Part shown: positions 2-46,705 of the stretch, in pieces
Position numbering within the stretch: the stretch's first letter is position 1
Layout of the letters: each line of letters opens with the position of its first letter
NCBI GenBank assembly: GCA_019187225.1
Contig: JABAQQ010000011.1
Coordinates: 62,001-126,000, forward strand
Reading direction: 5' to 3'
Source: Saprospiraceae bacterium
GTDB taxonomy: Bacteria > Bacteroidota > Bacteroidia > Chitinophagales > Saprospiraceae
DNA: 64,000 bases
Made by a program: the position numbers and the translations under genes
Notes under the pieces: model-generated
What the model was told of the DNA's origin: nothing
The model's input: only the letters and a program-made list of their open reading frames with translations
Databases searched by the model: none

Positions 2-3000
2 GCGGAGTGGCGTATAAAAGTCGTCGCCAATCCGCCGAAACCTGTTGGTATTTCAGGGCCCGCTTTGATTTGCCCCGGCACGCCTTATACATACACTTTG
101 TCGGGCAATTCGTCTTATGCTCTGGAATGGAAAATAAAAAACGGTGCGCCTGCGCCAACAACGCAATTGGGTGAAAACGTGAATGTGAACTGGGGTAACG
201 CGGATCCGCGCTGGATTTCCGTCGCGCAAATTTCTACCGACGGACTGGGTTGCGTGTCCGATACGGTGCGAATGAGCGTTCAATCCTTGCCACCGGTTGT
301 CGTTACAGGCACTTCGCAAGTGTGCATTGGCGCGCTCGGTTCTTATTCGTCAGTTTTATTTCAAAACATTGATTATCAATGGGAAATAATCCCAGCGGAC
401 GCGGGAGCCATCAAAAGCGGGCAGGGGAAAAATGCAGCGGAGATCTTCTGGCAACTGCCTGGCAATCACACCGTGAAGCTCACGCGCTGCGGATCGTCGG
501 CTACTTTCCCTGTGACCGTTCACGCCGAACCTGAGCCCATTCCCGCTTATCCCGTCGGCCTTTGCCCGAATGAAACGGGCACCGCATTGGCAGCCGCCAT
601 TTACACCGGCTACGTCTGGAAAAATGAAACGGGCAGTACGATTAGCAACTCGACTTCAACGCCAGTCACACCCGGCACTTATTCCTTGATTGTCACGGAT
701 TTGAACGGCTGCAAAGGCACGGCGGAATTTACAGTGAATCAATACCCAAAGCCCAACGTGACCGTCACGACCGCCGATCCGACGGGTTTTTGCAATAACA
801 GTCTTTACGTATCCCTCACAGCGCTCACGCCGGACGACGGTGATTTTGACTACGAATGGTACAGAGACGGCATTCCACTCGGTGTGAATGCACCTGTTTA
901 TGTCACCAACCAATACGGTTATTATTCAGCCTCCGTGACCAATGAATACGGCTGCAAAGCGAGCGATGGCACAGTACAAGTTTTTGAATATTGTGGTGGC
1001 GGTGTTTGCCACAACCCTACACACAAGCCCAAATGCGATACCAACGACGTGAATTTCAAGATCACTCCTTCGGTGCGCTGCGACTCTTTTCAATTTGATC
1101 TTATTAATTTGTCAGGTATGTACCAGCCGGGTTCGGCGGAATGGCACTTCGGCGAATCGGGCAGCGATTATTTGGGAAATTCCACCGAAGAAAATCCTGC
1201 TTTTACTTTCCCCAATGCAGGAAAATATATTGTCGTCTTGTATGCCCAATTGACGAACGGCGCCGAATGTACGGTACTCGATTCTGTTGACGTAGAAGCC
1301 GTTGCGCAATTTTCACAGGTGATGGCCTGTCCCGGCGATTCCACTTTTTTTACCGATGAAAGCACTCGTTTGCCAGAGGCGGGTTTTGCAAGTTGGCATT
1401 GGGACTTCGGCGAACCGGGTGCTCCTGCGAGCGGTATTCCTTCACCCGGCCATCCCTACGCCAGCGCTGGAAACTACACCGCCACGCTCACGGTCACTAC
1501 TGCTTCCGGCTGTACGTCAACTTATTCGGAAAACGTCTTTGTGCCCGCCTCGCCCACACCCACTTTCGCGCCTCCCGCTGCCAATTGCGTGAACAATGCT
1601 ACCGAGTTCAACGCCCTGGTTTCCAATGATGTTACCTCCGTCGCATGGAGTTTCGGCGACCCTGTTTCAGGGAATCTGAACGCTTCTACTTCGGCATTAG
1701 CCTATCACAAATTTACCCCGGCAGGCGCCTACAACGTGAGCCTCACGGCGACCAATCTCTATGGTTGCAGGGCGACATTTTCGCAACCTGTCAACATAAC
1801 ATCCAATCCTTTCAACGGCAACATTACGCCTGCGGGCAACAACGTTATTTGCGAAGGGAAGACCATTGTACTCACCGCGCCCGTCTTTGGCGGCGCCAAT
1901 TATTTGTGGTCAACAGGCGCCGGTTCCTCCACGATCACAGTCGGCGAAGAAGGCGTTTACGACGTGACTTTAACGAACGCGAACGGCTGCACTTATTCAC
2001 CTCCCGCAAAAACCGTTGAGGTGAATCCCGCCCCTGTCGGCGTGATAAAGGCTTTAGAGATCAATGAATTGGGTCAAATAACAGGCGTGTCGTATCCGGA
2101 TTTGGCTGTCTGCGCCGGTGAAGACGTGAACCTGCAAGTGTTCGACAACGGCAACTTCAGCTATTTCTGGAGCGGCGGCAACGGCAACGGCGAGATCATT
2201 ACTTTTTCGGAAGACCGTGGCAACGCGCTCACAGTGGGTACCCACACCTATACCGTCACTATCACCAACCCCGGCACAGGTTGCACCGCCATTACTTCGC
2301 CGTTCGATGTGACGGTGAACCCCCTCCCCTCCGGCTTTAGCCTTTCGACCAACAACGTATGCGCCGGTACGCCGGGCACCATCACTTATACCGGCCCGCA
2401 ACCTGCCGATTGGCAGATACTTTGGAATACGGGAGAAACAGGTATCGGTCCGCTGACCACTGATGAGACCGGGTTATACTTTGTGCGCGTGGTGAACGAA
2501 CACGGCTGTGTGGCTCAAAGCAATACGGTTGTCATTTTCCCAGGTCCCAATATAGCAGCATTGCCTGCAGGCTGTCACTCCCGTTGCAATCCCGACACGC
2601 TTTGCCTGCCGGTGATGCCTGATATCGTGAGTTGGCAATGGTACTTCGAGGGTGTACCTATTCCCGGCGCGACGAGCAGCAATTTAGTGGCGACACAAAG
2701 CGGCACTTACTGGGCCGACCTCGTGGACCTGAACGGCTGCAATGCCCAAAGCGCACCGCTTACGTTGAATCTATACCAGGGCAGCGGCGATATTTCAGGG
2801 CAGGTGTGGTCGGATGTGAACGGCAACGGCATCATTGACGCGGTGGACACTTTGGTATCGGGGATACCTGTTGTGTTGCTTCAAAACAATGTGCAAGTCG
2901 CTGCAAGTCAGTCTTCTGCAGGCGGTGTCTTCGATTTTTTAAACGTACTCTCTACGGGATATACGGTTCAAATTGACAGCCTCTCGCTCGCTTCTTTTTG

Positions 3001-5074
3001 GGAGATCGTTATCGGGGAAAACCCGGTAACACTCACCGGTTGCGCTGCCAAAGGTTTTGTAGATCTGCTGGTCAATTTTAAATGCGTGTCCTCGGCGAAT
3101 ACCATACAAGCCTCCACCTGCCCCGGAACGACGTACAATTACGCGGGTGTTGATTTAGCGGTCGGTCAGATAGAAGTTTTCAACTTGACAAATTCGGTAG
3201 GCTGCGATTCGGTTGTCACCGTTTCGGTTTCAGCGTTGCCGACTTCAACTTCCGCTTTCAGCGTAAAGACCTGTCCCGGAACGACTTACCATTACGCAGG
3301 CGTGGATTTGGCAGTAGGTCAGACGCAGGATTTTTACCTGACCAATTACTTAGGCTGCGATTCGGTCGTCACGGTGTCGGTTTCGGCGCTGCCGGCCTCG
3401 GCTTCGAGTTTAAGCGTAAAGACCTGTCCCGGAACGACTTACCATTACGCAGGCGTGGATTTGGCAGTAGGTCAGATAGAAGTTTTCAACTTGACAAATT
3501 CGGTAGGCTGCGATTCGGTTGTCACGGTAACGGTGGGTGCGTTGCCGGCCTCGGCTTCGAGTCTGAGCGTAAAAACCTGTCCCGGAACGACTTACCATTA
3601 CGCAGGCGTGGATTTGGCAGTAGGTCAGACGCAGGATTTTTACCTGACAAACTACTTAGGCTGCGATTCGGTCGTCACGGTAACGGTGGGCGCGCTGCCG
3701 GCCTCGGCTTCGAGTCTGAGCGTAAAAACCTGTCCCGGAACGACTTACCATTACGCAGGCGTGGATTTGGCAGTAGGTCAGACGCAGGATTTTTACCTGA
3801 CCAATTACTTAGGCTGCGATTCGGTCGTCACGGTGACGGTGGGCGCGCTGCCGGCCTCGGCTTCCAGTTTGAGTGTAAAAACCTGTCCCGGAATGACTTA
3901 CACTTATGCGGGCGTTGATCTGGCGGTGGGCCAAACGCAGGACTTTTATCTGACCAATTACTTAGGCTGCGACTCGGTCGTCACGGTGACGGTGGGCGCG
4001 CTGCCGATTTCGGCTTCGGCGGTTTCGTTCGGTGTTTGTCCCAATGAAACTTATGAATATGCTGGCGTGCAATTGGCTGCCGGAACGACGGCTGATTTCA
4101 TCCTGACCAATACCGTGGGCTGCGACTCGGTGGTGACGGTGACGATATTCGAAAAAAAGACTTCCGTCGAACTGCTCGAAGTCGAAGTTTGCCCCAATGA
4201 AGTGTACACCTTCAAAGGCACGGATATTGCGCCGGGCGAGACACGGGAGTTTCACTTTTTGGGCTTCGAGGGCTGCGATTCCACCGTCACGGTGACGGTG
4301 ACGGCCTTGCCCGCGCTCGATTTTGACGTCGCATCCGAAATCTCCTGCCCGACCACACCGACGGGCTCACTTTCTGTTACCGTCGTTGGAGGCGGAAGTA
4401 CACCGACAGGTTTTTCTCTGAACAATACTGATTTTCAGCCAAATGCCTTGTTTGAAAACCTCGCATCGGGCGATTATACGGTGTTCGTGCAGGACAACAA
4501 CGGCTGCATTTTTGAACAACCTGTAACCATCGGAGCCTTGCCTCGCCTGGAAATATCGCTTCCGGGAACGACTGTCATTCCCTGCGACCACGCTGAAGTC
4601 ACACTTGCGCCGGAAATATCGGGCGACGTGACGGGACTACAACTGCTCTGGTGGAACGGCGCAAAAACACCTTCTGTCACGGTGACTGAAGCCGGCCCCA
4701 TTTGGGTGGAGGCGACCAACCTCTGCGAGACGCTGCGCAGCGAGGCTTCGGTCGTTTGGGAAGATTTGGCTGGAAACCAGGACTTTGTCTATGTCCCCAA
4801 CGTGTTCGCGCCGGAGGCGGAGTCAGAGGAAAACCGAACGTTCCGTACGTTTTTTATCAGCAACCTCGAATTGCTCGAATACCGCATCGAAGTCTACGAC
4901 CGCTGGGGCAATTTCATGTTCTGGTCGGAAACGCCTGAGCAGGGATGGGAAGGGTTGTTCGGCCAAAAAGTGATGGCCCCGGGTGTGTATGTGTGGCATT
5001 TGCGGGCGAAAATCGCCTTCTGCGGGCGGGTGATGACGGTGGAGCGGAAAGGGGATGTGGCGGTGGTGCGGTAA
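2..5074 (+). CDS. Giant T9SS type B (CHU_C) surface protein, 5' end outside window
   Basis: The frame is open from base 2, so the N-terminus lies outside the window; a TTG at 65 is not a credible start because PKD-like sequence continues across it. The visible part of about 1,690 residues is a chain of Ig/PKD-like beta-sandwich modules. An SdrD-B-like module (SDVNGNG, near base 2810) follows, then eight 51-residue repeats (3110-4333) and a C-terminal gliding-motility-associated domain from VPNVFAPE (near 4790) to the end. That last domain is the type B sorting signal that sends proteins through the type IX secretion system to the cell surface. Pairs of cysteines recur in the modules. By family knowledge the protein is a large adhesin or matrix component; its ligand cannot be told. 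Confidence in the class is high. Confidence 0.9.
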   Translation, partial: AEWRIKVVANPPKPVGISGPALICPGTPYTYTLSGNSSYALEWKIKNGAPAPTTQLGENVNVNWGNADPRWISVAQISTDGLGCVSDTVRMSVQSLPPVVVTGTSQVCIGALGSYSSVLFQNIDYQWEIIPADAGAIKSGQGKNAAEIFWQLPGNHTVKLTRCGSSATFPVTVHAEPEPIPAYPVGLCPNETGTALAAAIYTGYVWKNETGSTISNSTSTPVTPGTYSLIVTDLNGCKGTAEFTVNQYPKPNVTVTTADPTGFCNNSLYVSLTALTPDDGDFDYEWYRDGIPLGVNAPVYVTNQYGYYSASVTNEYGCKASDGTVQVFEYCGGGVCHNPTHKPKCDTNDVNFKITPSVRCDSFQFDLINLSGMYQPGSAEWHFGESGSDYLGNSTEENPAFTFPNAGKYIVVLYAQLTNGAECTVLDSVDVEAVAQFSQVMACPGDSTFFTDESTRLPEAGFASWHWDFGEPGAPASGIPSPGHPYASAGNYTATLTVTTASGCTSTYSENVFVPASPTPTFAPPAANCVNNATEFNALVSNDVTSVAWSFGDPVSGNLNASTSALAYHKFTPAGAYNVSLTATNLYGCRATFSQPVNITSNPFNGNITPAGNNVICEGKTIVLTAPVFGGANYLWSTGAGSSTITVGEEGVYDVTLTNANGCTYSPPAKTVEVNPAPVGVIKALEINELGQITGVSYPDLAVCAGEDVNLQVFDNGNFSYFWSGGNGNGEIITFSEDRGNALTVGTHTYTVTITNPGTGCTAITSPFDVTVNPLPSGFSLSTNNVCAGTPGTITYTGPQPADWQILWNTGETGIGPLTTDETGLYFVRVVNEHGCVAQSNTVVIFPGPNIAALPAGCHSRCNPDTLCLPVMPDIVSWQWYFEGVPIPGATSSNLVATQSGTYWADLVDLNGCNAQSAPLTLNLYQGSGDISGQVWSDVNGNGIIDAVDTLVSGIPVVLLQNNVQVAASQSSAGGVFDFLNVLSTGYTVQIDSLSLASFWEIVIGENPVTLTGCAAKGFVDLLVNFKCVSSANTIQASTCPGTTYNYAGVDLAVGQIEVFNLTNSVGCDSVVTVSVSALPTSTSAFSVKTCPGTTYHYAGVDLAVGQTQDFYLTNYLGCDSVVTVSVSALPASASSLSVKTCPGTTYHYAGVDLAVGQIEVFNLTNSVGCDSVVTVTVGALPASASSLSVKTCPGTTYHYAGVDLAVGQTQDFYLTNYLGCDSVVTVTVGALPASASSLSVKTCPGTTYHYAGVDLAVGQTQDFYLTNYLGCDSVVTVTVGALPASASSLSVKTCPGMTYTYAGVDLAVGQTQDFYLTNYLGCDSVVTVTVGALPISASAVSFGVCPNETYEYAGVQLAAGTTADFILTNTVGCDSVVTVTIFEKKTSVELLEVEVCPNEVYTFKGTDIAPGETREFHFLGFEGCDSTVTVTVTALPALDFDVASEISCPTTPTGSLSVTVVGGGSTPTGFSLNNTDFQPNALFENLASGDYTVFVQDNNGCIFEQPVTIGALPRLEISLPGTTVIPCDHAEVTLAPEISGDVTGLQLLWWNGAKTPSVTVTEAGPIWVEATNLCETLRSEASVVWEDLAGNQDFVYVPNVFAPEAESEENRTFRTFFISNLELLEYRIEVYDRWGNFMFWSETPEQGWEGLFGQKVMAPGVYVWHLRAKIAFCGRVMTVERKGDVAVVR
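3110..4333 (+). repeat. Eight tandem 153-bp coding repeats
   Basis: The unit is exactly 153 bp (51 codons), with starts at 3110, 3263, 3416, 3569, 3722, 3875, 4028 and 4181. Each unit carries a Cys-Pro near its start and a GCDS motif (third letter D, fourth S or T) about 30 residues later. Units two to six are nearly identical in bases, while units one, seven and eight have diverged. This indicates recent expansion or gene conversion of the middle units. Confidence 0.95.
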
Positions 5075-5183: not shown

Positions 5184-5191
5184 TACCTTTG
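5184..5191 (+). promoter_or_regulatory. Bacteroidota -7 box (TACCTTTG) upstream of mnmG
   Basis: The sequence matches the TAnnTTTG consensus of the Bacteroidota housekeeping sigma factor. It would give mnmG a leader of roughly 100 bases that includes the heptamer array. No well-spaced -33 TTG was found. Confidence 0.5.
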
Positions 5192-5262
5192 CCAACTTTT
5201 TTCCCAAAAACGAGGTTTTAGCCATTCAAAAAGTACGGTATCGGAAAACGCAAACGGCACCA

Positions 5263-5297
5263 CCGTCTACCGTCTACCGTCCACCGTCCACCGTCGA
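5263..5297 (+). repeat. CCGTCNN heptamer array abutting mnmG start
   Basis: Five heptamers (CCGTCTA, CCGTCTA, CCGTCCA, CCGTCCA, CCGTCGA) run up to one base before the mnmG ATG at 5299, filling the position where a ribosome-binding site would lie. The same core recurs at 17072 and 62495. Confidence 0.9.
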
Positions 5298-5298
5298 G

Positions 5299-7164
5299 AT
5301 GTTTCCAAAATACGATGTCATAGTCGTCGGCGCAGGCCACGCAGGGTGTGAAGCCGCCGTCGCTGCCGCCAACATGGGCTGTAAAGTTCTGTTGGCCACC
5401 ATGAACATGCAGACCATCGCCCAGATGAGTTGCAATCCCGCGATGGGCGGCGTCGCCAAAGGTCAGATCGTGCGCGAAGTAGACGCACTTGGCGGCTATT
5501 CGGGCATCGTGACCGACCACAGCGCCGTGCAATTCCGCATGCTCAACCGCTCCAAAGGCCCCGCGATGTGGAGTCCGCGCGCGCAAAACGACCGGATGCG
5601 CTTCGCTGCCAAATGGCGGCAAATGCTGGAGCAACACCCCAACGTTGATTTCTGGCAGGAAATGGTGCGCGGCCTCGTCGTGAAAGACGGGCGGGTACGC
5701 GGCGTGGTGACGGGCATGGGTTTGGAAATTGAGAGCGAGGCAGTTGTGCTCACCAACGGCACTTTTCTGAACGGCATCATCCACATCGGGGAAAAACAAT
5801 TCGGCGGCGGACGGGCAGGTGAATCGGCAGCGCGCGGTATCACCGAACAATTAGTCGAATTGGGTTTCGAGGCAGGTCGTATGAAAACCGGCACCCCGCC
5901 GCGTATTGATGGCCGCTCGCTCGATTATTCCAAAATGGAAGTGCAGGAAGGCGACTTCCCACCCGGCAGGTTTTCCTACACCGATACACCGCTGCTGGAA
6001 AAACAACTCTGCTGCTGGATCACTTATACCAACCAAAAAGTACACGACACGCTGCGCACGGGCTTCGACCAGTCGCCCATGTTCAACGGGCGCATTCAGG
6101 GCGTGGGGCCGCGCTATTGTCCCAGCATCGAGGATAAAATTGACCGCTTCAGCGACAAGGATCGCCACCAATTGTTCATCGAGCCCGAAGGCTGGGATAC
6201 GGTGGAGATTTACATCAACGGTTTTTCTTCTTCGCTGCCCGAAGACGTTCAGTACAAAGCGCTTCGCTATATACCGGGCTTGGAAAACGCCAAAATGTTC
6301 CGTCCCGGTTATGCCATCGAGTACGACTATTTCCCGCCCACGCAGTTGCAGACGACGCTCGAAACCAATCTGGTGAAAAACCTCTTTTTCGCCGGTCAGA
6401 TCAATGGCACGACGGGCTACGAAGAAGCGGCCTGCCAGGGATTGATGGCCGGACTGAATGCCGCTTTGAACGTGAAAGGCGAAGAACCGCTGGTGCTCAA
6501 ACGCTCCGAAGCATATATCGGCGTTTTGATAGACGACCTCGTGAACAAAGGTACCCAGGAGCCTTACCGCATGTTCACCAGCCGGGCAGAATACCGCATT
6601 CTGCTGCGGCAGGACAACGCCGATTTGCGCCTCACACCTATTGCGCACCGCCTTGGCGTGCGCGGCGCTGATGAACGCATGGAACGGGTGCGGGCAAAAA
6701 ACCGGGCAACCGCCGAGATCGAGGCCTTTTTCCGCAATGCTTCCGTAAGTCCCGAACAGATGAACGGCTATTTGCTATCGGTTGATTCGGCGCCGATCAA
6801 CCAGAAGGTCAAACTGTACAACATCCTGCTGCGCCCGCAAGTGGACATCCCAAGCCTGGCTCAAGCCCTGCCAGAACTCAATCAATTCCTCGCTCCCTAC
6901 GAACAGGAATTTTCCGAACTCGCCGAGATCAACATCAAATACGAAGGCTACATCCAAAAAGAACAGGACATGGTGGCTAAATTGAGCCGCCTCGAAGACC
7001 TGCACCTGCACCCCGACTTCGACTACGCCGGCGTCAGCGGGCTGAGCATCGAAGCACGCCAGAAATTGTCCAAAATGAAACCGCGCACCATTGGGCAGGC
7101 CAGTCGCATTTCGGGCGTGAACCCGGCGGATGTGAGCGTTTTGCTGGTACATTTGGGAAGATAA
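5299..7164 (+). CDS. mnmG: tRNA uridine-5-carboxymethylaminomethyl modification enzyme MnmG
   Basis: MnmG (GidA), with MnmE, installs the carboxymethylaminomethyl group on wobble uridine 34 of several tRNAs in the cytoplasm, using FAD and methylene-tetrahydrofolate. The 621-residue length is normal. The FAD-binding GAGHAG lies at residues 11-16, the conserved CNPAMGG block near residue 48, and the GYEEAACQG and SRAEYR motifs in the C-terminal half. The start at 5299 gives the standard N-terminus directly before the FAD fold. A thioredoxin gene follows after 10 bases and may be co-transcribed. The heptamer array directly before the start codon is unusual. The mnmE partner is not in this window. 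Confidence 0.97.
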
Positions 7165-13646: not shown

Positions 13647-13754
13647 CGACGCGCAACATACGACCTGCAATTATTGATGCAATAGTTATGCTATGGGTAT
13701 AAATAGTGCAATGAGTACCAAAATAATTCACATAAGTTATATGGACAAAATAAA

Positions 13755-13832
13755 TTGACCTTGGACGTTGGACATTTGACCTTGACAACCAATCATTTAG
13801 TCCAATGTCCAATGTCAAAAATCCAACGTCCG
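13755..13832. repeat. Mirrored pair of heptamer arrays
   Basis: Five heptamers with core TKGAC (13755-13789: TTGACCT, TGGACGT, TGGACAT, TTGACCT, TGACAAC) are followed by an 8-base spacer. Five heptamers of the complementary core GTCCA come next (13798-13832: TAGTCCA, ATGTCCA, ATGTCAA, AAATCCA, ACGTCCG). The two halves can pair into a long imperfect hairpin. The rest of the 299-base gap between rarA and the next gene holds only AT-rich sequence and the promoter at 13896. Confidence 0.85.
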
Positions 13833-13895
13833 CATGCTTGTGTTAAAATATTGTTGTTTTCTCCGTTAAACCCATCCTAAACTTTCCCGACTCCC

Positions 13896-13927
13896 TTGAC
13901 TTGGCGTACCTCCTCCCGTTAAGTTTG
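13896..13927 (+). promoter_or_regulatory. Promoter (TTG, 21-base gap, TAAGTTTG)
   Basis: A -33 TTG at 13896-13898 and a -7 TAAGTTTG at 13920-13927 fit the Bacteroidota consensus well. The start codon of the lipoprotein gene is 18 bases beyond the -7 box, so the leader is very short. Confidence 0.7.
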
Positions 13928-13945
13928 CCCCAAAAATTAAGCACC

Positions 13946-17071: not shown

Positions 17072-17111
17072 CCGTCCACCGTCTACCGTCCACTGTCCAC
17101 CGTCCACCGTT
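17072..17111 (+). repeat. CCGTCNN heptamer array abutting rfaE1 start
   Basis: The copies are CCGTCCA, CCGTCTA, CCGTCCA, CTGTCCA, CCGTCCA and a partial CCGTT, ending exactly at the base before the ATG at 17112. The core is the same as at 5263 and 62495. Confidence 0.9.
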
Positions 17112-18101
17112 ATGGATATTTTACAAAAACTTGAAGGGCAAGAAGTTTTGATCATTGGCGACGTGATGCTCGACCGCTACCTGACAGGGTCGGTGAGCCG
17201 GATATCGCCGGAAGCGCCGGTGCCGGTGGTGCTGCAACATGCAATGGAAGACCGGCTGGGAGGCGCCGCCAACGTGGCGCTGAATGTGCACGCGCTCGGG
17301 GGAGTGCCGGTGCTGTGCAGTGTAGTGGGAAATGACGAAGACGGTGCGATTTTTCAGCGCCTGCTTCCGGCAAACGGTATTTCGCCGGAAGGTATCATGG
17401 CTTCGCCCGGAAGGCAAACAACCGTAAAAACGCGCATCCTGGGCAACAACCAGCAGATGCTGCGCATTGACCGGGAGGATATTCACGATCTGACGGATGA
17501 CGAAGCGCAATTGTTTGTGCAAAAAATATTGCGATTGCTGGCGGAGCGCCCCATCGGGATTGTTATTTTTCAGGATTACAACAAAGGGGTACTGACACCG
17601 GAGGTGATCGCTGCGGTAATCGCTGCCACCCGTCAACGCGGCATTCTTACTGCTGTTGACCCCAAAAAAGTCAATTTTTTTGCGTATCAGGGTGTTGATC
17701 TGTTCAAGCCGAACCTGAAGGAGATTCGCGACAGCGCGCCGTTTGCAGTACGTCCGGAACCGGAATCTCTGCAGAGGGCGTCCGACTTTTTGCGCGAACG
17801 CCTGCAAAACCGCATTACCATGATCACGCTATCCGAAAAAGGCTTATTTTTGGACGACGGTTCGGGTGGAAAAATTTTCCCGACCATACCGCGCAAGGTG
17901 GCGGATGTGAGCGGCGCCGGCGATACCGTCATCAGCATAGCTGCACTTGGCCTGGCATCGGGAATGGATATCGAAATGATCGCCACCTTGTCCAATCTTG
18001 CCGGTGGGCAGGTATGCGAGTTCCCCGGCGTTGTACCCGTGCGTCGCGACATTCTGGCTTTAGAACTCGAACATTTTCTAACACAAAATTCATTGCCATG
18101 A
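17112..18101 (+). CDS. rfaE1: D-glycero-beta-D-manno-heptose-7-phosphate kinase (HldE kinase-domain type)
   Basis: This 329-residue PfkB-family sugar kinase phosphorylates heptose 7-phosphate at C1 in the ADP-heptose pathway for lipopolysaccharide core. The N-terminal GDVMLDRY and SPEAPVPV blocks are diagnostic for the RfaE kinase domain. The catalytic GAGDT motif lies near residue 275. The nucleotidyltransferase domain fused to it in E. coli HldE is absent, so that step needs a separate gene outside the window. The stop overlaps the start of the next gene by 4 bases (ATGA), indicating translational coupling. The heptamer array occupies the place of the ribosome-binding site. Confidence 0.92.
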   Translation: MDILQKLEGQEVLIIGDVMLDRYLTGSVSRISPEAPVPVVLQHAMEDRLGGAANVALNVHALGGVPVLCSVVGNDEDGAIFQRLLPANGISPEGIMASPGRQTTVKTRILGNNQQMLRIDREDIHDLTDDEAQLFVQKILRLLAERPIGIVIFQDYNKGVLTPEVIAAVIAATRQRGILTAVDPKKVNFFAYQGVDLFKPNLKEIRDSAPFAVRPEPESLQRASDFLRERLQNRITMITLSEKGLFLDDGSGGKIFPTIPRKVADVSGAGDTVISIAALGLASGMDIEMIATLSNLAGGQVCEFPGVVPVRRDILALELEHFLTQNSLP

Positions 18102-27960: not shown

Positions 27961-27972
27961 AATGATTTCGGA

Positions 27973-28002
27973 TTGGGGTTTTCAAGTATAGATTTACATT
28001 TG
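27973..28002 (+). promoter_or_regulatory. Promoter of the MlaF-like gene (TTG, 19-base gap, TACATTTG)
   Basis: The -33 TTG (27973-27975) and -7 TACATTTG (27995-28002) fit the Bacteroidota consensus with the ideal 19-base spacer. The resulting leader of about 50 bases is mostly the heptamer array at 28031-28058. Confidence 0.75.
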
Positions 28003-28030
28003 CGAAGCAAAATATCTGATCTGCGACATC

Positions 28031-28058
28031 AATCCGCAATCCAAAATCCGAAATCTCC
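28031..28058 (+). repeat. AATCCNN heptamer array abutting the MlaF-like start
   Basis: Four heptamers (AATCCGC, AATCCAA, AATCCGA, AATCTCC) end exactly at the base before the ATG at 28059. The start codon is therefore in register with the array, as in nadB. Confidence 0.9.
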
Positions 28059-28820
28059 ATGATTCGCGCAGAAAATATCATCAAAACCTTCGGCGATCAA
28101 CAGGTGCTGAAGGGCATCAATTTCACTTTTGAAGCCGGCAAAAACAACCTCATCATCGGCCGCTCCGGTGCCGGCAAAACGGTGCTGCTCAAGATTCTGG
28201 TCGGGCTGCAAACGCCTACCACCGGAACGGTCTGGTACGATAAGGTGAATTTTACCGCGCTGGATAAGGAAGGTATGCGCGCCATTCGCATGAAGATCGG
28301 GATGTTATTCCAGGGTTCTGCCCTGTTCGACTCCATGACAGTAGAAGAAAACATCCGCTTTCCGCTCGACATGTTCACCGACAAAACCCCGCGTCAAAAG
28401 CTCGAGCGCGTCAACTATTGCCTCGAACGGGTGAACCTCGCCGGCAACAACCGCAAGTACCCATCTGAACTTTCCGGAGGCATGCAAAAGCGGGTCGGCA
28501 TCGCCCGGGCCATCGTCCTGGAGCCGCAATATCTCTTTTGCGACGAACCCAACTCCGGGCTGGACCCGAAAACGGCTATCCTGATTGACGAACTGATCAG
28601 CAGCATCACGGAGGAAAACAACATCACCACCGTCATCAATACGCACGATATGAACTCGGTGATGGAAATCGGCGACAACATTTGTTTTCTGCACGAAGGC
28701 CGCCTCGAATGGAGCGGCAACAAAGACCAGGTGCTCGGTAGCGACAATGAAAATCTCCAGTCGTTCATTTTCGCTTCGCCGTTCTTGCAGCGCCTGCGCA
28801 AATCTGCCCTGAAAAAGTGA
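28059..28820 (+). CDS. ABC transporter ATPase, MlaF/Mkl type
   Basis: This 253-residue ATPase has Walker A GRSGAGKT at residues 34-41, the signature LSGGMQKR and Walker B LFCDEPNSGLDP. The MQKR signature and the NTHDMNSV H-loop region are typical of MlaF/Mkl ATPases that drive MCE-type lipid transport between the membranes. The expected MlaE permease and MCE-domain protein are not adjacent: upstream is a DUF2141 gene and downstream a polytopic membrane protein. Partners may be encoded elsewhere. Translation begins directly at the end of a heptamer array. Confidence 0.9.
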   Translation: MIRAENIIKTFGDQQVLKGINFTFEAGKNNLIIGRSGAGKTVLLKILVGLQTPTTGTVWYDKVNFTALDKEGMRAIRMKIGMLFQGSALFDSMTVEENIRFPLDMFTDKTPRQKLERVNYCLERVNLAGNNRKYPSELSGGMQKRVGIARAIVLEPQYLFCDEPNSGLDPKTAILIDELISSITEENNITTVINTHDMNSVMEIGDNICFLHEGRLEWSGNKDQVLGSDNENLQSFIFASPFLQRLRKSALKK

Positions 28821-35950: not shown

Positions 35951-38900
35951 TCACTCGACGAGCACAAACCCCGCCCATTGATACGGATCGAAGCCCTGCT
36001 CGCGCATTGCTTTCTGTGCGGCCCGGAATGCTTCGGGTATCTCCATTTTTTCCTCTAACCATTTTTTGTAAAAAGTCGTCATCAGGAGGGAAGTCTGCTG
36101 GTCCGGCACCTGCCAGAGGCTCATGATCAGGTATTTCGCTCCGGCGATCTTAAAAGCGCGCTGCAGGCCGTACACGCCTTCGTTGCCTTGTATTTGCCCC
36201 AGTCCGGTTTCGCAGGCGGAGAGCACCACCAGTTCGGTGTTCGACAAATTCATCTGGCTGATCTCATAGGCGGTAAGAATGCCGTCTTCCATATGCGGGC
36301 GGAGGGGTTTGCCCGTTTGCCAGGCGTGATTGGCGCCGGCGAGTAAAAGGCCCGAGCGGATCATGGGATGGTCAGATATCTTAAAAACAGGCTCATCCGA
36401 TTGGGGATTGGGGATTGGGGATTGGGGATTGTCTTTCGGGTCGGGGAAGAAAAAGCCGTGGGTGGCGATGTGGAGGACGCGTGGCGAAGGTGTGGCTTGG
36501 CCGATGCGTTTGAAGGATTCTTCGGTAGCTACGTAGCCTTTGTACAACTGCATATTCATGTCGCCGGACTTTATGATCTGCTCAATTGCATCCACTTCTT
36601 TTTCTGTATAGGGGAGATAATTCCAGTCAACGCCCGAGCGCAGCAGGGAATCGGTATAGGCAAAACTCAACGTTTCAAGGTTGTCGGTCGGGGTTGGTTG
36701 CATTTTCAAATTATTGTATGCCTGATAGATGGCGGCACTGTCCATTTCATAGCGGATGCCACCGAATAGAATGGCAGTATTAACTGCCGAAGCCCCGGCG
36801 AAGGCGGGAGCATCGGCTACAAAAGTGCTATCGCCAACTACCAGTTGCCGGGTGCTGCCGAGTTGGACGAGTTCATATTTATCGGCTAACGTAAAGTCGG
36901 TGCGCATCGGAAGAGCGCCGAGGTTGATCTGGTGAAGCAGGCCCGAGGGAGAATAATAGACTGTTTTTACTCCATCGAGTTCCTTTTCAAGAGATTGCCA
37001 GAGCAGTTCGTAGAGCGATTTTTGGTTTTCCGCTATGCCCCGGCTGACAAGTGTGTATAGTTTGCTCACAAAGTCGGCTTTGCGCTCGCCAGTCACGCGG
37101 AGCAGGGTGTCGATTTGTTTTTCTTCAAAGAGCGTAATCCGGTGGGGCGATTCCCATCCCGGGCGAAGCAACAGCGCGGCGTACATCACACTATCTGTCT
37201 GAAGAGGATTGAAAAATTTATAGCGGACAAATTCGATGGCGGCTTCGTCTGGTCGGAGCGCGGTCTGCACTTCCTTCCAGGTCACTTGTCGAATAGCTTC
37301 GCCGAAGCCTGCCACGGTGCGGGTGAGTTCTTTTTCGAGCGTATTGGCTTGTTTTTCGAGGTCAGCAATTTTTGCGCTGTCACGCCCTGCGAGAGGCGTT
37401 GCATATTCTTTAGCTAAACGGCGGTGATACGACTTAAGCAAATAATATTTTTCTGCGCTTGCCGAATCAGCCAGCGCCAGTTTACCGACCTGGGAAACAG
37501 CGTTCAGCAAAAAACCTTTGCGGAAGAGGGCATAGTCGTAAGAAGAAGGACTCATTTCCGAATGCTTTTGAGCAAACGACAGTCTCTCTTCGTTCCATCT
37601 GGCCAGTTTATTTCCGTATAACGATAGTTCCTGTTCCGAAAGGTGGAAAGATGCTTTCGTCAACAGTGATTTTTCAATTTCGGCAGACTTCAAAAAAACT
37701 TGCCGGGCGGTATCGCTTTTGCAATTTGCCCAGTACAAAACCGCCAGGTTGGCCAGAACCGATGCATAGTCAGGATGTTCTTTACCCAATGCTTTTTCCT
37801 GAATCGCGAGGGCTTCAACCTGAAGTTGCCCGGCTTTCTCATACTTGCCCGTTTCAGAATACAAATTCGCCAGATTGGAAAGACTTGCTGCATAGGAAGG
37901 GTGCTCTTTGCCCAATGCTTTTTCCCGAATTGCAAGCGCCTCGATATGAAGCGCCTCGGCTTTCTGATGACTGCCCATATCCTTATACAAACTCGCCAGA
38001 TTGTTCAGGTTCGCTGCATAATGGGGATGCTCTTTTCCCACTGATTTTTCCCGAATCGCGAGTGCTTCGAGGTAAAGCGGCTCAGATTTCTCATAACGGC
38101 CTGTTTTCCAATACAAAAGCGCCAGATTGTTCAGACTCCAGGCATAATCGGGGTGCTCTTTGCCCCATGTTTTTTCCCGAAGATTAAGGGCTTCGACTAA
38201 AAATGGCTCGGCTTTTTCATAGTTGCCCATGTCCCAATACAAACTCGCCAGATTGCTCAGGCTCGCCGCATAATCGGGATGCTCTTTTCTCAGTACTTTT
38301 TCCTGGATGGCAAGCACTTCGGCAAAAAGCGCCTCGGCTTTTTCATAATTTCCCATTTCCTGATACAAAATCGCCAGGTTATCCGAACTAGTCGCATAAT
38401 CGGGATGCTCTTTGCCCGATGCTTTTTCCAAGATAGTTATTGCCTCGCGATAAAGTGGCTCGGCTTTTTCATATTTGCCCGTTTCTGCATACAAATTCGC
38501 CAAATTACCCAAATTCTGCCCATATTGAGGATGTTCTTTGCCCAATATTTTTCCCCGAAGAGCAAGCGCTTCGATATAAAGCGACTCCGCTTTTTCGTAA
38601 TTGCTTGTGAGATAATACAAGTTCGCCATATTGTTCAGCCCCAATGCATAATCGGCGTGCTCTTTACCAAGTAGCTTTTCTTTTATGGCAAGCGCTTCAA
38701 CATAAAGCAGCTCGGCTTTTTCATAGTTGCCTATTTCCATCAACAAAATCGCCAGGTTATTCAGGCTTGCAGCATAGTCGGGGTGTTCTTTGCCCAGTGT
38801 TTTTTCCCGGATATTTTTTGATTCAAGAAAAAGCGGTTCGGCTTTTTCATACTCGCCCATGTGCTGATACAATATCGCCAAATCATTCATTACCAATGCA

Positions 38901-39493
38901 TAATCGGCATGCTCTTTACCGAATGCTTTTTCCTTAATGGCAAGGGCCTCGACATAACGCGGCTCGGCTTTTTCAAAGTTGCCTGTTTTCCAATAAAAAC
39001 GCGCCAGATTAAGAAGGCTCGCCACATAATCAGGATGTTCTTTGCCCAATGTTTTTTCCCGAATGGCAAGGGCTTCGAGATAAAGCGGCTCGGCTTTTTG
39101 GGAATCGCCCATTTTCGAGTACAAATTCGCCAAACCGTTCAGGCTCGTTGCATAATCCCGGTGTTCTTTGCCAAATACTTTTTCCCGAATGTCTTTAGAT
39201 CCCAGAAACCACTTTTCGGCTGTCGTAAAATCTCTTTTATATAAGAAAAATACACCATAATTGTAGGATACGCTGCCGTAAGACGCCGACTCCCTGCCGA
39301 ATTTTTCCAGCGCAAGTTTTTCGGCGGCAACATTGACTTCCAAAGATTTGTCGAAATCACCTTCCTCCGTAAGCGCGCGGGAAATCTGGAGGAGGCTATC
39401 TACCTGCCGCATTGCGGCCAGCGAGTCGGCATTTTGGCAAAAAACGGGTAGGGAAAAAAGAAAGAGGGCGGAGAGGGCAATTGCGTTTTTCAT
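35951..39493 (-). CDS. Secreted TPR-CHAT protein (caspase-like peptidase), paralog 2
   Basis: The 1,180-residue product has a signal peptide (cleavage near FCQN), twelve clear 42-residue kinesin-light-chain TPR units plus a degenerate first unit, a linker and a C-terminal CHAT domain. His1012 and Cys1094 form the catalytic pair. The last 130 residues are almost the same as in the paralog at 8353-12135, while the TPR units of this copy are more uniform (for example repeated KEHPDYA). This implies recent repeat expansion. Just after the catalytic His, residues 19-30 beyond THG are encoded by a heptamer array (36400-36431). A minus-strand -7 box lies at 39559. Confidence 0.9.
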   Translation of the reverse strand: MKNAIALSALFLFSLPVFCQNADSLAAMRQVDSLLQISRALTEEGDFDKSLEVNVAAEKLALEKFGRESASYGSVSYNYGVFFLYKRDFTTAEKWFLGSKDIREKVFGKEHRDYATSLNGLANLYSKMGDSQKAEPLYLEALAIREKTLGKEHPDYVASLLNLARFYWKTGNFEKAEPRYVEALAIKEKAFGKEHADYALVMNDLAILYQHMGEYEKAEPLFLESKNIREKTLGKEHPDYAASLNNLAILLMEIGNYEKAELLYVEALAIKEKLLGKEHADYALGLNNMANLYYLTSNYEKAESLYIEALALRGKILGKEHPQYGQNLGNLANLYAETGKYEKAEPLYREAITILEKASGKEHPDYATSSDNLAILYQEMGNYEKAEALFAEVLAIQEKVLRKEHPDYAASLSNLASLYWDMGNYEKAEPFLVEALNLREKTWGKEHPDYAWSLNNLALLYWKTGRYEKSEPLYLEALAIREKSVGKEHPHYAANLNNLASLYKDMGSHQKAEALHIEALAIREKALGKEHPSYAASLSNLANLYSETGKYEKAGQLQVEALAIQEKALGKEHPDYASVLANLAVLYWANCKSDTARQVFLKSAEIEKSLLTKASFHLSEQELSLYGNKLARWNEERLSFAQKHSEMSPSSYDYALFRKGFLLNAVSQVGKLALADSASAEKYYLLKSYHRRLAKEYATPLAGRDSAKIADLEKQANTLEKELTRTVAGFGEAIRQVTWKEVQTALRPDEAAIEFVRYKFFNPLQTDSVMYAALLLRPGWESPHRITLFEEKQIDTLLRVTGERKADFVSKLYTLVSRGIAENQKSLYELLWQSLEKELDGVKTVYYSPSGLLHQINLGALPMRTDFTLADKYELVQLGSTRQLVVGDSTFVADAPAFAGASAVNTAILFGGIRYEMDSAAIYQAYNNLKMQPTPTDNLETLSFAYTDSLLRSGVDWNYLPYTEKEVDAIEQIIKSGDMNMQLYKGYVATEESFKRIGQATPSPRVLHIATHGFFFPDPKDNPQSPIPNPQSDEPVFKISDHPMIRSGLLLAGANHAWQTGKPLRPHMEDGILTAYEISQMNLSNTELVVLSACETGLGQIQGNEGVYGLQRAFKIAGAKYLIMSLWQVPDQQTSLLMTTFYKKWLEEKMEIPEAFRAAQKAMREQGFDPYQWAGFVLVE
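36400..36431 (-). repeat. In-frame AATCCCC heptamer array within the CHAT domain
   Basis: Four and a half copies of ATTGGGG on the plus strand (AATCCCC in the sense strand) encode a Pro/Asn/Gln/Ser stretch next to the catalytic His. The paralog has unrelated sequence of the same length here. Confidence 0.85.
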
Positions 39494-41442: not shown

Positions 41443-42420
41443 ATGCAAAACAACCGGCATCGTCATTTTACCCGTCGAGTAGTCAGTCTTGTTATATTTA
41501 CCTGCCTTTGCTTGTGTTGGAACCTTCCGGGTCGGGCCCAGACGGTCCTCGATACGCCGCTCGGATGGGTAATGCTGGAAACCGATTCGACCGAACGGAA
41601 AGGGTTGAAACAAATGATCTGCCGTAAGTCGAACGAACACCGGATCAACGGGGAAACCAAAAGTTATACCGTGACCGAGGTGTGGCACTACGATAAAGCG
41701 GGACGGCTTTTGCAAGTAACCCAACAATACAAAAAGTACCCGATCTCAACTTTTTGCCGTTTGGAATACGACAGTCTTGGCCGGCTGTGGCGCATCTACG
41801 ACGGTTACAACCGGATCGGCATGCAATATTTTTACGGCTCCGACGGGCGGCGCAGTCATGCTGTGGAAAGCAGGGGCAGAGCCTGCATCCTCAAAACATA
41901 CTCCTACGATTCGGAGACTAACGTGGAAAGGGTTTACGAATACGAATTGCACCGGTATCCCGACCCGGCAGGCAAGCGGATCATTTCTTCCCGGCCGGAC
42001 ACCACCTTTGTTCCGTGTCCCCTTTATGAAGCGGAAGAATTGCCTGCCGAAACTGGCTTGCTCGCCAGCGAACGTATTTTTTCGCCCGCCGGCGAATTAC
42101 TGGAAACACGAGATTACAATGACGGGAAACTCTGTTTCGGAATCAATTCTTCCTGGGATGCCACCGGTACCATCAAATACACCTGGTATTATGACGACGA
42201 CCAACGCGAACTTTCCGAGGAAAAGATCTACAACGCCAGAGGCCAGGTGACGCAGCGGCGCTGGTTTCTAATGGACATCAAGGACGGAAAAATATTCGGC
42301 GGACCGCGCGAGGGTTGGGTCAACACGTTTTCGTACGACAAAAAAGGACGTCTGAGCCGTGCGGAACATACCACCCCTTACCAGGAAGTTGCGTGGGAAT
42401 ATGAGTACGTGGAATGGTAG
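41443..42420 (+). CDS. Secreted YD-repeat-like protein
   Basis: The 325-residue product has a signal peptide (cleavage near GRAQ). The mature part contains several short motifs of the form YD..GRL (DKAGRLLQV, YDSLGRLWRIYD, YDKKGRLSRAE) with strands between them, like the YD/RHS repeats of sugar-binding beta structures. It is too short to form a full RHS shell and has no toxin tail. It lacks a sorting domain, so it is expected in the periplasm. Function is unknown. The stop codon is the first part of a heptamer array. Confidence 0.7.
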   Translation: MQNNRHRHFTRRVVSLVIFTCLCLCWNLPGRAQTVLDTPLGWVMLETDSTERKGLKQMICRKSNEHRINGETKSYTVTEVWHYDKAGRLLQVTQQYKKYPISTFCRLEYDSLGRLWRIYDGYNRIGMQYFYGSDGRRSHAVESRGRACILKTYSYDSETNVERVYEYELHRYPDPAGKRIISSRPDTTFVPCPLYEAEELPAETGLLASERIFSPAGELLETRDYNDGKLCFGINSSWDATGTIKYTWYYDDDQRELSEEKIYNARGQVTQRRWFLMDIKDGKIFGGPREGWVNTFSYDKKGRLSRAEHTTPYQEVAWEYEYVEW

Positions 42421-42527
42421 CAGTGGGCAGTAGGCAGTAGCAATTGTCCTGCAAACTGCCCACTGCCTCCTGCGCACTGCCTACTGCCTACTGCCACTGC
42501 TACTGCTACTGCTACTGCCCACTGCCA
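42420..42527. repeat. Mirrored heptamer arrays overlapping two gene ends
   Basis: Three inverted heptamers (GCAGTGG, GCAGTAG, GCAGTAG at 42420-42440) start in the stop codon of the upstream gene. A 14-base spacer follows, then six heptamers of the ACTGCCN type (42455-42496), three CTGCTA hexamers and two more ACTGCC copies. The stop codon of the opposing DUF2911 remnant (42512) is inside the array. Confidence 0.85.
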
Positions 42528-43102
42528 CTTGCTCCCAACTTTTTCAAATACGCTTCTGAATTGGCTTTCACATTGGCCGGCGGGTTCATGCTGAGCGCCT
42601 TTTTGAAATTTTTGATGGCGTTTTCCTTGTCGCCTTTGGTAGCGTATCCCTCGCCCAAGCTGTCCCAGCAATTAGCGCTTTCGGGGTGGCGTTCGGTGTT
42701 GACAGTAAAAATTTTGATGGCTTCGTCGTGCTGGCCATTGCCGAGTAACTGATAACCGTACTGATTGAGTTCGGCTTCCGTCGCCAGTGTGATCGCGTCT
42801 TTATCGAGTTTGTCGGCATCGGCGGTTTTGCCCACTTGCCGCAGCAGTCCGGCTTTGACGTTCAGCGTTGTAAAATTTTTGTTTTGCGCGATGGCCTGGT
42901 CAATCCATTGGAGGGCTTTTTCCTGATTCCCCTTGTTTTGCCTGGCGTAGTTGGCGGCGCTGGAATATACTTGCCATGAAAAGCCGGTGGGGCCTTTCAA
43001 TTCTTCCGCCGCGTTGGCCATCACGATGTCGTCGGTGGCAAATTCAATTTTGACGGGGAAATGTTTCTTTTCCCAGTTGAGTACCAATTCGCCGGAATTC
43101 AA
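42512..43102 (-). pseudogene. N-terminally truncated DUF2911/TPR protein
   Basis: The frame reads a recognisable DUF2911 end (ELVLNWEKKHFPVKIE) followed by TPR-like helices (NCWDSLGEGYATKGDKENAIKNFKKAL). Homology starts abruptly near 43102. The signal peptide and about the first 130 residues of the DUF2911 domain are absent, and the frame upstream is unrelated. The C-terminus runs into a heptamer array that supplies the stop codon. Both ends are therefore altered. It could still be expressed as a fusion with unrelated upstream sequence, but a functional protein is unlikely. Confidence 0.75.
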
Positions 43103-45094: not shown

Positions 45095-46705
45095 TTACAG
45101 TACCGATTCTTCCACAAAAGGCAATTTCTCCGGGTAATCCGTCGTGAAGTGCAGACCCCGGCTTTCGCGGCGATGCGAAGCCGAGCGGGTGATGAGGTAG
45201 GCGATGGTGATCAGGTTGCGCAGTTCCATCAGTTGGGGGCTGACGGCAGTGGTCTTGTAGAGTTCCTCGGTTTCCTGGTAGAGCAGGAAAAGCCGGTCGA
45301 GGGCGCGTTTGATGCGCACGTTGGAGCGCACGATGCCGACGTAGTACGACATGATCTCCTTTAATTCCTTGATACTCTGTGTAATGAGCACCATTTCCTT
45401 CGGTTCGGTAGTGCCTTCGGCGTTCCAGTCGGGTACGCCTTCCCTGAAATTCCAGCCGTCAAGTTTGTCCTGTATATCGAGAAAAATGCGGTGGGCGAAT
45501 ACCATCGCTTCGAGCAGGGAATTGGAGGCGAGGCGGTTGGCGCCGTGCAGGCCAGTGCTGCTGCATTCGCCCGCCGAGTACAGCCGGCCGATGCTGCTGC
45601 GGCCATATGCGTCCACCATGATGCCGCCGCACATGTAGTGGCAGGCCGGCACCACAGGGATCATGTCTTTCATCGGATCAACGCCGATGCTCACGCATTT
45701 TTGATAGATGGTCGGGAAGTGCGCCGTGAAATCATCCTTGTTGAGGTGGCGGCAGTCGAGGTACATACAATCGGTACCGCGTTTTTTCATTTCAGAGTCA
45801 ATGGCGCGGGCCACGATGTCGCGCGGGGCGAGCGAGAGGCGGGAGTCGTAGTGTTGCATGAACTCTTCTCCCTCGGCAGTTTTCAGGATGCCGCCGAAGC
45901 CGCGTACCGCTTCGGAGACGAGGAAAGAAGGGTTTTCGCCCGCCGGGTTAAAAAGTGAAGTGGGGTGAAACTGCATGAACTCCATGTTCTCCACCCGGCC
46001 CTTGGCGCGATAGGCCATGGCCACGCCGTCGCCTGTGGCGATCACCGGGTTGGTGGTGGCTTTATAGACCTGGCCGGCGCCGCCGGTGCAAAGGACGGTG
46101 ACGCGTGAGAGGAAAGTGTCTATGTCGCCGTTCTGCCTGTTGAGGGCATAGCAGCCGTAACATTCGATGCCCGGCGTGACGCGGACGACCATGTGGCCGA
46201 GGTGGTGCTGGGTGATGAGGTCGAGCGCGAAAAAATGTTCGAGTATCCTGATATTGGGAAGTTTTGCGGCTTCCTCCATGAGGGTGCGCTGCATTTCCCA
46301 GCCAGTGAGGTCTTTGTAGTGGAGGATGCGGTGCTCGGAATGACCGCCTTCGCGGGCAAGGTCGTATTCGGCAGAGCCTTTTTCTTTGTCGAACCTGGCG
46401 CCCCAGTCAATGATTTCCTGTACCCGTGTAGGGCCTTCTTCCACCACGATGCGCACGATGTCTTCTTTGCAAAGGCCGTCGCCGGCGTCGAGCGTATCGG
46501 CGATGTGTTTTTCAAAATTATCTTTTTCCTCGTCCCACACCGCCGCGACGCCGCCCTGCGCATAACGGGTATTGTTCTCACCTTCGACGGTTTTGGTCAA
46601 TACCGTTATCTGACGGTCGGGGAAGCGCCGGGCGGCTTTGATGGAAAAGGTGAGCCCGGCGATGCCGGAGCCGAGGACGAGGATGTCGGTTTGGATGCGA
46701 GCCAT
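45095..46705 (-). CDS. nadB: L-aspartate oxidase
   Basis: NadB oxidises L-aspartate to iminoaspartate with FAD, the first step of de novo NAD synthesis. The start is the ATG at 46705 (MARIQTD); a longer frame to 46747 would translate the heptamer array and overlaps the promoter box. The 536-residue product has the FAD motif GSGIAGL at residues 11-17, the HSEHRILHYKDLTG block, the MEFMQFHPTSL block and the GGIMVD and GLHGANRLASNSLLE motifs. All are expected for NadB rather than succinate dehydrogenase. The nadA partner is not in the window. Confidence 0.95.
   Translation of the reverse strand: MARIQTDILVLGSGIAGLTFSIKAARRFPDRQITVLTKTVEGENNTRYAQGGVAAVWDEEKDNFEKHIADTLDAGDGLCKEDIVRIVVEEGPTRVQEIIDWGARFDKEKGSAEYDLAREGGHSEHRILHYKDLTGWEMQRTLMEEAAKLPNIRILEHFFALDLITQHHLGHMVVRVTPGIECYGCYALNRQNGDIDTFLSRVTVLCTGGAGQVYKATTNPVIATGDGVAMAYRAKGRVENMEFMQFHPTSLFNPAGENPSFLVSEAVRGFGGILKTAEGEEFMQHYDSRLSLAPRDIVARAIDSEMKKRGTDCMYLDCRHLNKDDFTAHFPTIYQKCVSIGVDPMKDMIPVVPACHYMCGGIMVDAYGRSSIGRLYSAGECSSTGLHGANRLASNSLLEAMVFAHRIFLDIQDKLDGWNFREGVPDWNAEGTTEPKEMVLITQSIKELKEIMSYYVGIVRSNVRIKRALDRLFLLYQETEELYKTTAVSPQLMELRNLITIAYLITRSASHRRESRGLHFTTDYPEKLPFVEESVL

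Follow-up and report, generated by a model that had tools for sequence, protein, structure and literature searches.

Arrays in the mnmG leader and elsewhere in the window

The window, i.e. the whole stretch of 64,000 nucleotides analysed here, carries the mnmG gene at 5299-7164 on the forward strand, recognized by a TIGR00136 match of 843.7 bits; its start, ATGTTTCC, is common to several congeners. The leader of the gene contains a five-unit ACCGTCY array, which period-7 scoring places at 5262-5295 (+). In the frame of the original prediction (5263-5297) the array reads CCGTCTA twice, CCGTCCA twice and CCGTCGA once, and is followed by a G at 5298 and the ATG at 5299, so that the five CCGTCNN heptamers announced before the start codon are present, while the 35 bases that they fill are not quite the last ones, a single base separating them from the ATG. 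On the G-rich strand the unit reads TGGACGG/TAGACGG. An inverted partner of the array is at best weak (rank 0.17), and the 64-kb window gives no match to the Rfam 15 curated RNA families at gathering score. Upstream, TACCTTTG at 5184-5191 (+), the end of which is 70 nt from the array, fits TANNTTTG, the Bacteroidota -7 promoter motif; given this candidate promoter, the array would be part of the transcribed leader.

The three further start-adjacent arrays that had been predicted (17072, 28031 and 46706) are all recovered by period-7 scoring combined with gene calls: a CCGTCYA array at 17072-17110 (+), one base upstream of the ATG (17112) of an HldE-type kinase gene (17112-18101, +); an AATCCNN array at 28030-28055 (+), three bases upstream of the ATG (28059) of an ABC transporter ATPase gene (28059-28820, +); and an AATCCGC array at 46710-46733 (-), four bases upstream of the ATG (46705) of nadB, encoding L-aspartate oxidase (45095-46705, -). 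The array at 28030 has a short G-rich inverted partner, GATTTCGGATTGGGGTTT, at 27964-27981 (+), 48 bp before it, which scores above all 30 controls.

These four start-adjacent arrays belong to a total of ten period-7 arrays in the window, the others being absent from the original prediction. Four of them form two inverted pairs. The first consists of ACTGCCY arrays: the left, G-rich arm (42420-42440, -) overlaps the stop of the forward gene ending at 42420, and its partner, the right, C-rich arm (42449-42495, +), adjoins the stop side of the reverse-strand gene 42512-43102 and runs on as a period-6 repeat up to 42518. The second, with a GTCCAAC-family left arm (13757-13783, -) and a GTCCAAT-family right arm (13800-13819, +), occupies the middle of the intergenic region 13647-13945. 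The last two arrays lie within ORFs: an AATCCCC array (GGGGATT on the other strand) at 36399-36431 (-), within ORF 35951-39493, and a CCGTCYN array of about 11 units at 62495-62570 (+), within the weakly scored predicted ORF 61993-62763; this ORF could be an artefact, or else the array could have invaded coding sequence. Longer tandem repeats are also found inside ORFs of the window, with units of 153 bp at 3116-4144 (ORF 320-5074), of 126 bp at 37764-39191 (ORF 35951-39493) and of 42-93 bp at 48611-48936 (ORF 47578-49092).

Polarity at gene edges

In 400 kb of the genome to which the window belongs, 55 period-7 arrays are found, as opposed to none in a block-shuffled copy, and the genome has 575+477 occurrences of CCGTCNNCCGTCNNCCGTC, compared with 24+8 for the pattern read backwards (matches overlap, so that a long array counts many times). 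The position of arrays relative to genes was surveyed in 864 kb (12%) of this 7.18-Mb genome. Genes were called as ORFs by a codon model, which is heuristic and leaves start codons uncertain; arrays were oriented by their C-rich, G-poor strand and compared with 2000 trials of random re-placement within the same intergenic regions, a null that leaves promoters and terminators out of account and in which arrays sharing one intergenic region are not independent.

The survey yields 99 period-7 arrays, 88 intergenic and 11 in genes. In 53 of the 88 intergenic arrays, no more than 15 bp separate the 3′ end of the C-rich strand from the next gene edge (null mean 16.5, maximum 28); for the 5′ side this is so in 12. 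At start edges the C-strand 3′ side is that close in 29/49 cases (null 10.2, maximum 17) and the opposite orientation in 1/37 (4.0 expected); thus, the enrichment before start codons with a fixed strand that had been proposed is borne out, and a random intergenic spread with no strand preference, the outcome named as contrary to it, is not found in the 864 kb. However, linkage to start codons is not a specific trait of the arrays. Stop edges are equally or more enriched (24/39 within 15 bp; null 6.3, maximum 13) with the opposite mRNA sense, so that a ribosome-entry element does not account for the pattern. The stop-side arrays begin tightly, in many cases 0-4 bp off the stop codon, and the opposite orientation is not depleted there (11/51 within 15 bp, null 12.5). 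Whether the edge is a start or a stop, the G-rich strand has its beginning there and heads away from the gene.

The single heptamer design of five fixed plus two variable bases gives way to many unit families, and periods 8-10 obey the same rule. Within 15 bp of an edge are 18/22 arrays of the ACCGTCY/ACCCTCY family, 10/14 of AATCCNN, 10/13 of AACCAAY and 6/10 of TTCATCA/ACTCATA; ACTGCCY units follow weakly (2/5), and the GTCCAAY family disobeys (4/18). Formation of a quadruplex is not needed, since 72 of the 88 arrays are without CCC and 42 of these 72 still lie within 15 bp of a gene edge. Counts on the 3′ side and on the other side are 13 and 3 for period 8 (n=34), 7 and 0 for period 9 (n=10), 11 and 1 for period 10 (n=17) and, more weakly, 4 and 0 for period 6 (n=21). 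When periods 5-13 are merged, 149 of 181 intergenic arrays are C-skewed; 83 of these lie at an edge with the 3′ side and 9 with the 5′ side, where 21.6 would be expected for either; the 32 arrays with no C/G skew hardly obey the rule (10 and 7, 6.0 expected).

Inverted pairs and the order of their arms

Among adjacent arrays of one intergenic region (periods 5-13), the orientations '-+' are found 28 times, '--' 23 times, '++' seven times and '+-' never, i.e. neighbours of opposite orientation have the G-rich arm first by 28 to 0. A common 6-mer on the C-strand is found in 25 of the 28 inverted pairs, compared with 18% of random array pairs. Both arms lie within 20 bp of a gene in 12 of the 28 intergenic regions, and one arm in 13. 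Array-free hairpins, 100 of which were classified, have no clear G-first bias (44 G-first against 33 C-first), which argues that the arm order is not inherited from ordinary terminators.

The search for remnants of a second arm took in the 58 of 70 unpaired arrays that have enough flank. A short inverted partner scoring above all 30 controls is found for 12 of the 58 (1.9 expected); inverted similarity in the flanks is 8.48 versus 6.15 and direct similarity is also raised, but less (6.78 versus 5.61). No partner is detectable for 27/43 start-edge and 16/40 stop-edge arrays. Gene cassettes between inverted arrays were considered and rejected, only three genes having arrays at both ends, with differing units. 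In one convergent intergenic region (C2:87204-87360), GTCCAAC-family arrays recur about every 22 bp.

Occurrence in other genomes

Scanning a genome collection for CCCCAATCCCCAATCCCCAATC returned at least 115 stretches, from Cyanobacteria, Xanthomonadaceae, Chloroflexota, Planctomycetes, Bacteroidota and others. The edge test was applied to 80 loci among the matches listed, leaving out 21 seed arrays inside predicted genes. Within 15 bp of an edge are 23 of the 55 intergenic seed arrays on the 3′ side and two on the 5′ side (5.9 expected); for all 213 arrays of these 80 listed loci the figures are 87 and 21 (26.4 expected), stop edges (67/122) being stronger than start edges (20/91). The arm order '-+' prevails here as well (50 cases), and '+-' does occur (nine cases).

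Closer to the window, 21 of 150 genomes sampled within the family have three consecutive CCGTCNN units, making this unit sporadic, and the sampled relatives are much poorer in arrays than the present genome: 200 kb of G023 hold no intergenic period-7 array and 200 kb of G055 hold one, period 8 being dominant in the latter. In that part of G055 (C52:1-200000, L125-L134) there are 11 period-8 arrays against two of period 7, and three G-first inverted pairs.

Orthologous sites compared between species

Five of 30 mnmG loci carry an array in the upstream 120 bp. In three of them, all from congeners, the array lies 2-5 bp before the start, with heptamers that differ (ACCGTCY in G000, GCTGCCY in L082 and AAAACTC in L086), a difference which reflects either independent gain or complete unit turnover. 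At locus L088, two arrays, 39 and 79 bp upstream of the start, have the orientation that the rule would forbid, and the mnmG loci of G156 and G158 have no upstream array. An empty-site comparison of the window with G156 and G158 fails, their mnmG being only about 82.6% identical and the intergenic DNA not aligning; therefore, the comparison was made between these two congeners, which share about 95% identity in aligned DNA, over 81 orthologous intergenic regions, 7 array-bearing and 74 array-free.

Length changes of more than 30 bp affect 3/7 array-bearing and 14/74 array-free regions, a difference that is not significant. Growth in place is clearly seen once: an intergenic region is 444 bp long in G158 and 147 bp in G156, between flanks that are 98% and 91% identical, and contains about 39 period-8 units in the former compared with about two in the latter. 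The grown array lies ten bases from the start codon, with both flanks kept and no partner. The C/T pattern along the longest array is no more periodic than in shuffles (191 of 500 reach it), which speaks against block duplication in that array, and no unit-level duplication pattern is seen. Elsewhere, G158 has a 171-bp insertion with respect to G156 (L120:4371-5577, i.e. G158:C2:764371-765577), with an 8-bp direct repeat CGCAAACC, GTGAAAACTTAGGCAG-like inverted ends and period-9 arms inside, which has the appearance of a MITE-like element.

Events of several kinds are also found in Nostoc and Xanthomonas, where alignments of Nostoc loci were compared by eye. At one Nostoc site, 6 of 30 orthologous loci have an inverted-array block of ~165 bp at a distance of 2 bp from a start codon, in place of about 16 bp of native leader; the other 24 lack it. 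The 67-bp core of this block, between its heptamer arms (L171:6146-6212), matches 44, 40 and 47 places in three close genomes, with 40 candidates scored per genome and many of the matches partial, suggesting that the core region is a high-copy dispersed hairpin element. In a convergent region of four close Nostoc species, with flanking genes 97-100% identical, two species have an array block and two a terminator-like hairpin. In another, a hairpin with (GTCATTA)n/(TGACAAA)n arms is present in nearly all of 21 species, the simplest form being a plain hairpin of 43 bp flanked by two stop codons; of 30 loci, 22 are compared, one of them lacking the second gene. Finally, in a convergent region of Xanthomonas (19 of 20 loci, L308 being dropped as its second gene was not found), the arms adjoin both stop codons in 16 of 19 species, and in two species a different unit, GGGGACC/GGTCCCC, has taken over in both arms alike.

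Folding and base composition of the message ends

Leaders (-40 to +20) with an array have a mean MFE of -3.43 (n=42), compared with -7.10 for leaders without one (n=511). Reversing the strand of the array brings the mean to -10.72, and the reversed form is the more stable in 41 of 42 cases. Trailers (100 nt) with arrays behave in the opposite manner, with -31.5 as found versus -18.9 reversed; the found orientation is the more stable in 33/40, and in 16/19 of the unpaired ones. Trailers with arrays are also more folded than others (-0.320 versus -0.241 kcal per nt), and the arm pairs fold. With regard to mnmG, the folding model says only that the orientation of the array would not obstruct the leader.

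Part of the folding contrast is due to base composition alone. Across the genome, start edges without an array are poor in G (about C 0.28, G 0.17), and stop edges are unskewed; thus, local base composition fails as a full explanation, as it can cover the starts only. Promoter displacement was also considered. The motif TANNTTTG precedes the array in 9/47 start-edge cases, mnmG among them, at a distance of 11-70 nt; none is found in the 25 bp ahead of 37 array starts, compared with 22 hits at 401 array-free starts, numbers too few for significance.

Origin of the arrays

Starting from the position, orientation, arm order, unit diversity, single growth in place and folding difference described above, the balance tilts slightly towards repeats of leaders and hairpin stems that are grown by slippage and filtered by selection at the mRNA level, as opposed to a dedicated start-codon element. 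Indeed, the arrays look like fast-growing intergenic repeats that survive where the start of the message stays open and its end folded. Tandem repeats with a period of 7-10 bp would arise in untranslated DNA as slippage extends small seeds, with mRNA leaders and the stems of intergenic hairpins as seed sites, and mRNA-level selection would decide the place and orientation of those that persist. Just before a start codon, the G-poor strand alone would be tolerated as sense because the leader then stays unfolded; just after a stop codon, the sense would be G-rich and the trailer would fold, the G-rich trailer arm forming a long hairpin with the other arm across the intergenic region, and the stems of such hairpins would keep both arms alike. 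With a largely arbitrary unit sequence and a filter on orientation, the mnmG array would be a 5′ UTR expansion that is tolerated, not an element dedicated to regulation. We infer slippage as the generator, selection as the filter and no effect on mnmG. Slippage followed by selection accounts for the many different units and periods, the change of unit at mnmG, the polarity on the start side and the bulk of the pairing. It fits less well with the arrays that begin 0-4 bp after stops and with the opposite sense, which is not depleted near stops, so that the trailer filter is not a simple veto. Also counting against it are the disobedient GTCCAAY family, the unskewed arrays that hardly follow the rule, the two arrays of locus L088, the fact that growth in place is clearly seen only once, the length changes, which are not significantly more frequent at array-bearing regions, the lack of a unit-level duplication pattern in the longest array, the contribution of base composition to the folding contrast and the Nostoc block, which arrived as a unit with dispersed copies and is not simple slippage.

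The Nostoc data are at the heart of a different reading, according to which an inverted pair would be a present or past mobile palindrome, i.e. a MITE-like dispersed hairpin with repeat-array arms, single arrays having lost an arm and the polarity coming from the G-first order of the two arms. A dispersed core and empty sites are both found in Nostoc, where the ~165-bp block is present in 6 and absent in 24 loci with loss of leader DNA, the core recurs at 40 or more places per genome (many of the matches partial), and an array block stands in two of four close species for a hairpin; the exclusive G-first order of the present genome is in keeping with this. Here, however, array-bearing intergenic regions share no excess of other sequence (19/112 versus 41/324 array-free regions), which speaks against a shared mobile core, the units vary widely from locus to locus, many start- and stop-edge arrays have no detectable partner, and the partnerless G158 array grew in place. 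On the whole, a mobile origin is unlikely, while retaining some credit. The replaced hairpin of that Nostoc locus can equally be quoted for arm pairs being intergenic terminators or 3′ stabilizers, i.e. bidirectional hairpins, the stems of which were lengthened by tandem units, as can the (GTCATTA)n/(TGACAAA)n hairpin that is reduced to 43 bp in its plain form, the Xanthomonas arms beside both stops with their joint change of unit, and the stronger folding of trailers with arrays. Such an origin is distinctly unlikely as a general one: partnerless start-edge arrays are not terminators, array-free hairpins have no comparable arm order, and stops with arrays are not clearly short of other hairpins (2/38 have one beyond the array versus 37/345).

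Very unlikely is the dedicated start-codon-linked element for translation or expression tuning of the original prediction, perhaps recognized by an RNA-binding protein of the kind proposed for TAACTGA repeats (S1, Csp or CsrA). The fixed strand of the 29/49 start-facing arrays, the array 2-5 bp before mnmG in three species, the open leaders and the proposal made for Beggiatoaceae (MacGregor 2015, in the available part of that paper) would agree with it. As a general account it fails on the equal enrichment of stop codons in the opposite sense, and the many unit families and several periods, the units not conserved at the orthologous gene mnmG and the order of inverted pairs are likewise at odds with it. 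Finally, a polar process at the DNA level might add G-rich repeats outward from gene edges, in a telomere-like manner, until purifying selection halts it at the start or stop codon. This would suit the G-rich strand running 5′ to 3′ away from the gene at starts and stops alike, the facing pairs, which have the geometry of head-to-head end fusion, and the tight beginning of many stop-side arrays 0-4 bp from the codon. It is nevertheless highly improbable, as the gradient of unit decay between array ends is absent, both junctions are sharp, and the one growth observed occurred in place with its flanks kept.

Relation to known repeats

Part of the pattern is known already, namely that a single class of G-rich units has this edge polarity and forms convergent pairs (Rehm 2015, PMC4692102) and that TAACTGA arrays are start-linked (MacGregor 2015, PMC4679880), both as given in the available parts of these papers. 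Rehm 2015 describes G-quadruplex repeats, GGGAATC and GGGGA(C/T)T, in two Xanthomonas species and Nostoc; these heptamers are found genome-wide, mostly in intergenic DNA, with the G-rich strand beginning near the 5′ neighbouring ORF in either ORF orientation, and 70 and 75 convergent inverted pairs are counted in two Xanthomonas genomes. The present arrays resemble them in being intergenic, in the G-rich strand starting near the 5′ neighbouring gene whatever its orientation, in the convergent inverted pairs (28 '-+' versus 0 '+-') and in the AATCCCC array, which, read as GGGGATT, has the Nostoc unit. They differ, as far as that text goes, in that the mnmG unit is devoid of G-triplets and 72/88 arrays lack CCC, in the many unit families of a single genome with periods 8-10 behaving alike instead of one G-rich class, and in the host, here a Bacteroidota-type genome.

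The TAACTGA direct repeats, as set out in the available text of MacGregor 2015, are found in marine Beggiatoaceae, Cyanobacteria and five Bacteroidetes. In Beggiatoaceae they are intergenic and mostly within several nucleotides upstream of starts on a fixed strand; in Flexibacter litoralis, 12 of 14 sets are intergenic, forward and 1-43 nt before a start codon; in Microcystis, the orientation is mixed. Thus, Bacteroidetes do have a previously described family linked to start codons, of which the original prediction was not aware. The likeness to the present arrays extends to intergenic heptamers close upstream of start codons, the fixed strand and the occurrence in Bacteroidetes. The units are different, that of mnmG being ACCGTCY and the main ones of the 88 arrays including AACTAAT and AACTCAT, not TAACTGA; so is the placement, which is mostly forward before starts for TAACTGA and here divided between 29/88 start-facing and 24/88 stop-facing arrays within 15 bp. 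In what is available of it, that paper deals with a single unit and is not concerned with a stop-edge rule or with inverted pairs. Surveys of STRR and of long simple sequence repeats in prokaryotes (Mazel 1990, Mrazek 2007), as cited in Rehm 2015 and MacGregor 2015, report a preference for period 7 and longer units in larger genomes; period 7 is prominent here as well, and, as cited there, the surveys give no gene-edge polarity. Full-text literature searches, outside which most subscription papers fall, brought up no paper stating that the rule holds regardless of unit sequence, quadruplex potential and exact period.

It would be a long shot that 7-10-bp intergenic repeats of unrelated sequence follow one rule across phyla, with the G-rich strand outward from any edge and the same unit mirrored at both region ends, as the result of a single process, be it polar DNA growth as in telomeres or a rule common to all mRNAs, open ahead of the start and folded behind the stop, with enough force to shape neutral repeats throughout the genome. 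If the rule holds, the repeats would be a natural readout of what mRNA ends tolerate, amounting to thousands of natural experiments in which an arbitrary repeat is allowed in one orientation per gene side; a quadruplex or a unit-specific binding protein would be needless as a general explanation of heptamer arrays, and the papers of Rehm 2015 and MacGregor 2015, each with part of the pattern, would be joined. For annotation, start- and stop-adjacent arrays would then not be taken as conserved regulatory sites unless a test of unit turnover is made.

Small dispersed repeats and mini-transposons are reportedly embedded in Nostoc heptamer arrays (Elhai 2008). Similar nesting between heptamer arms is seen here in Nostoc and in G156/G158; unlike those elements, no core common to the loci of the present genome is found. 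A dispersed intergenic element of ~170-190 bp does occur in this genome (C1:6387-7409, C1:226444-226794, C1:317317-317826 and C2:26208-27433), with copies that are 91-98% identical; the one at C1 226443 contains GGGGCAGCGCCCC palindromes and is flanked by the two arms of an ACCGTCY pair. In G156/G158, beside G156 136843-137102, an element with GAGAGTGT ends lies between the inverted arms GGTGTTGAGG and CCTCAACACC, and its length differs between the two congeners, the intergenic regions being 259 and 658 bp long.
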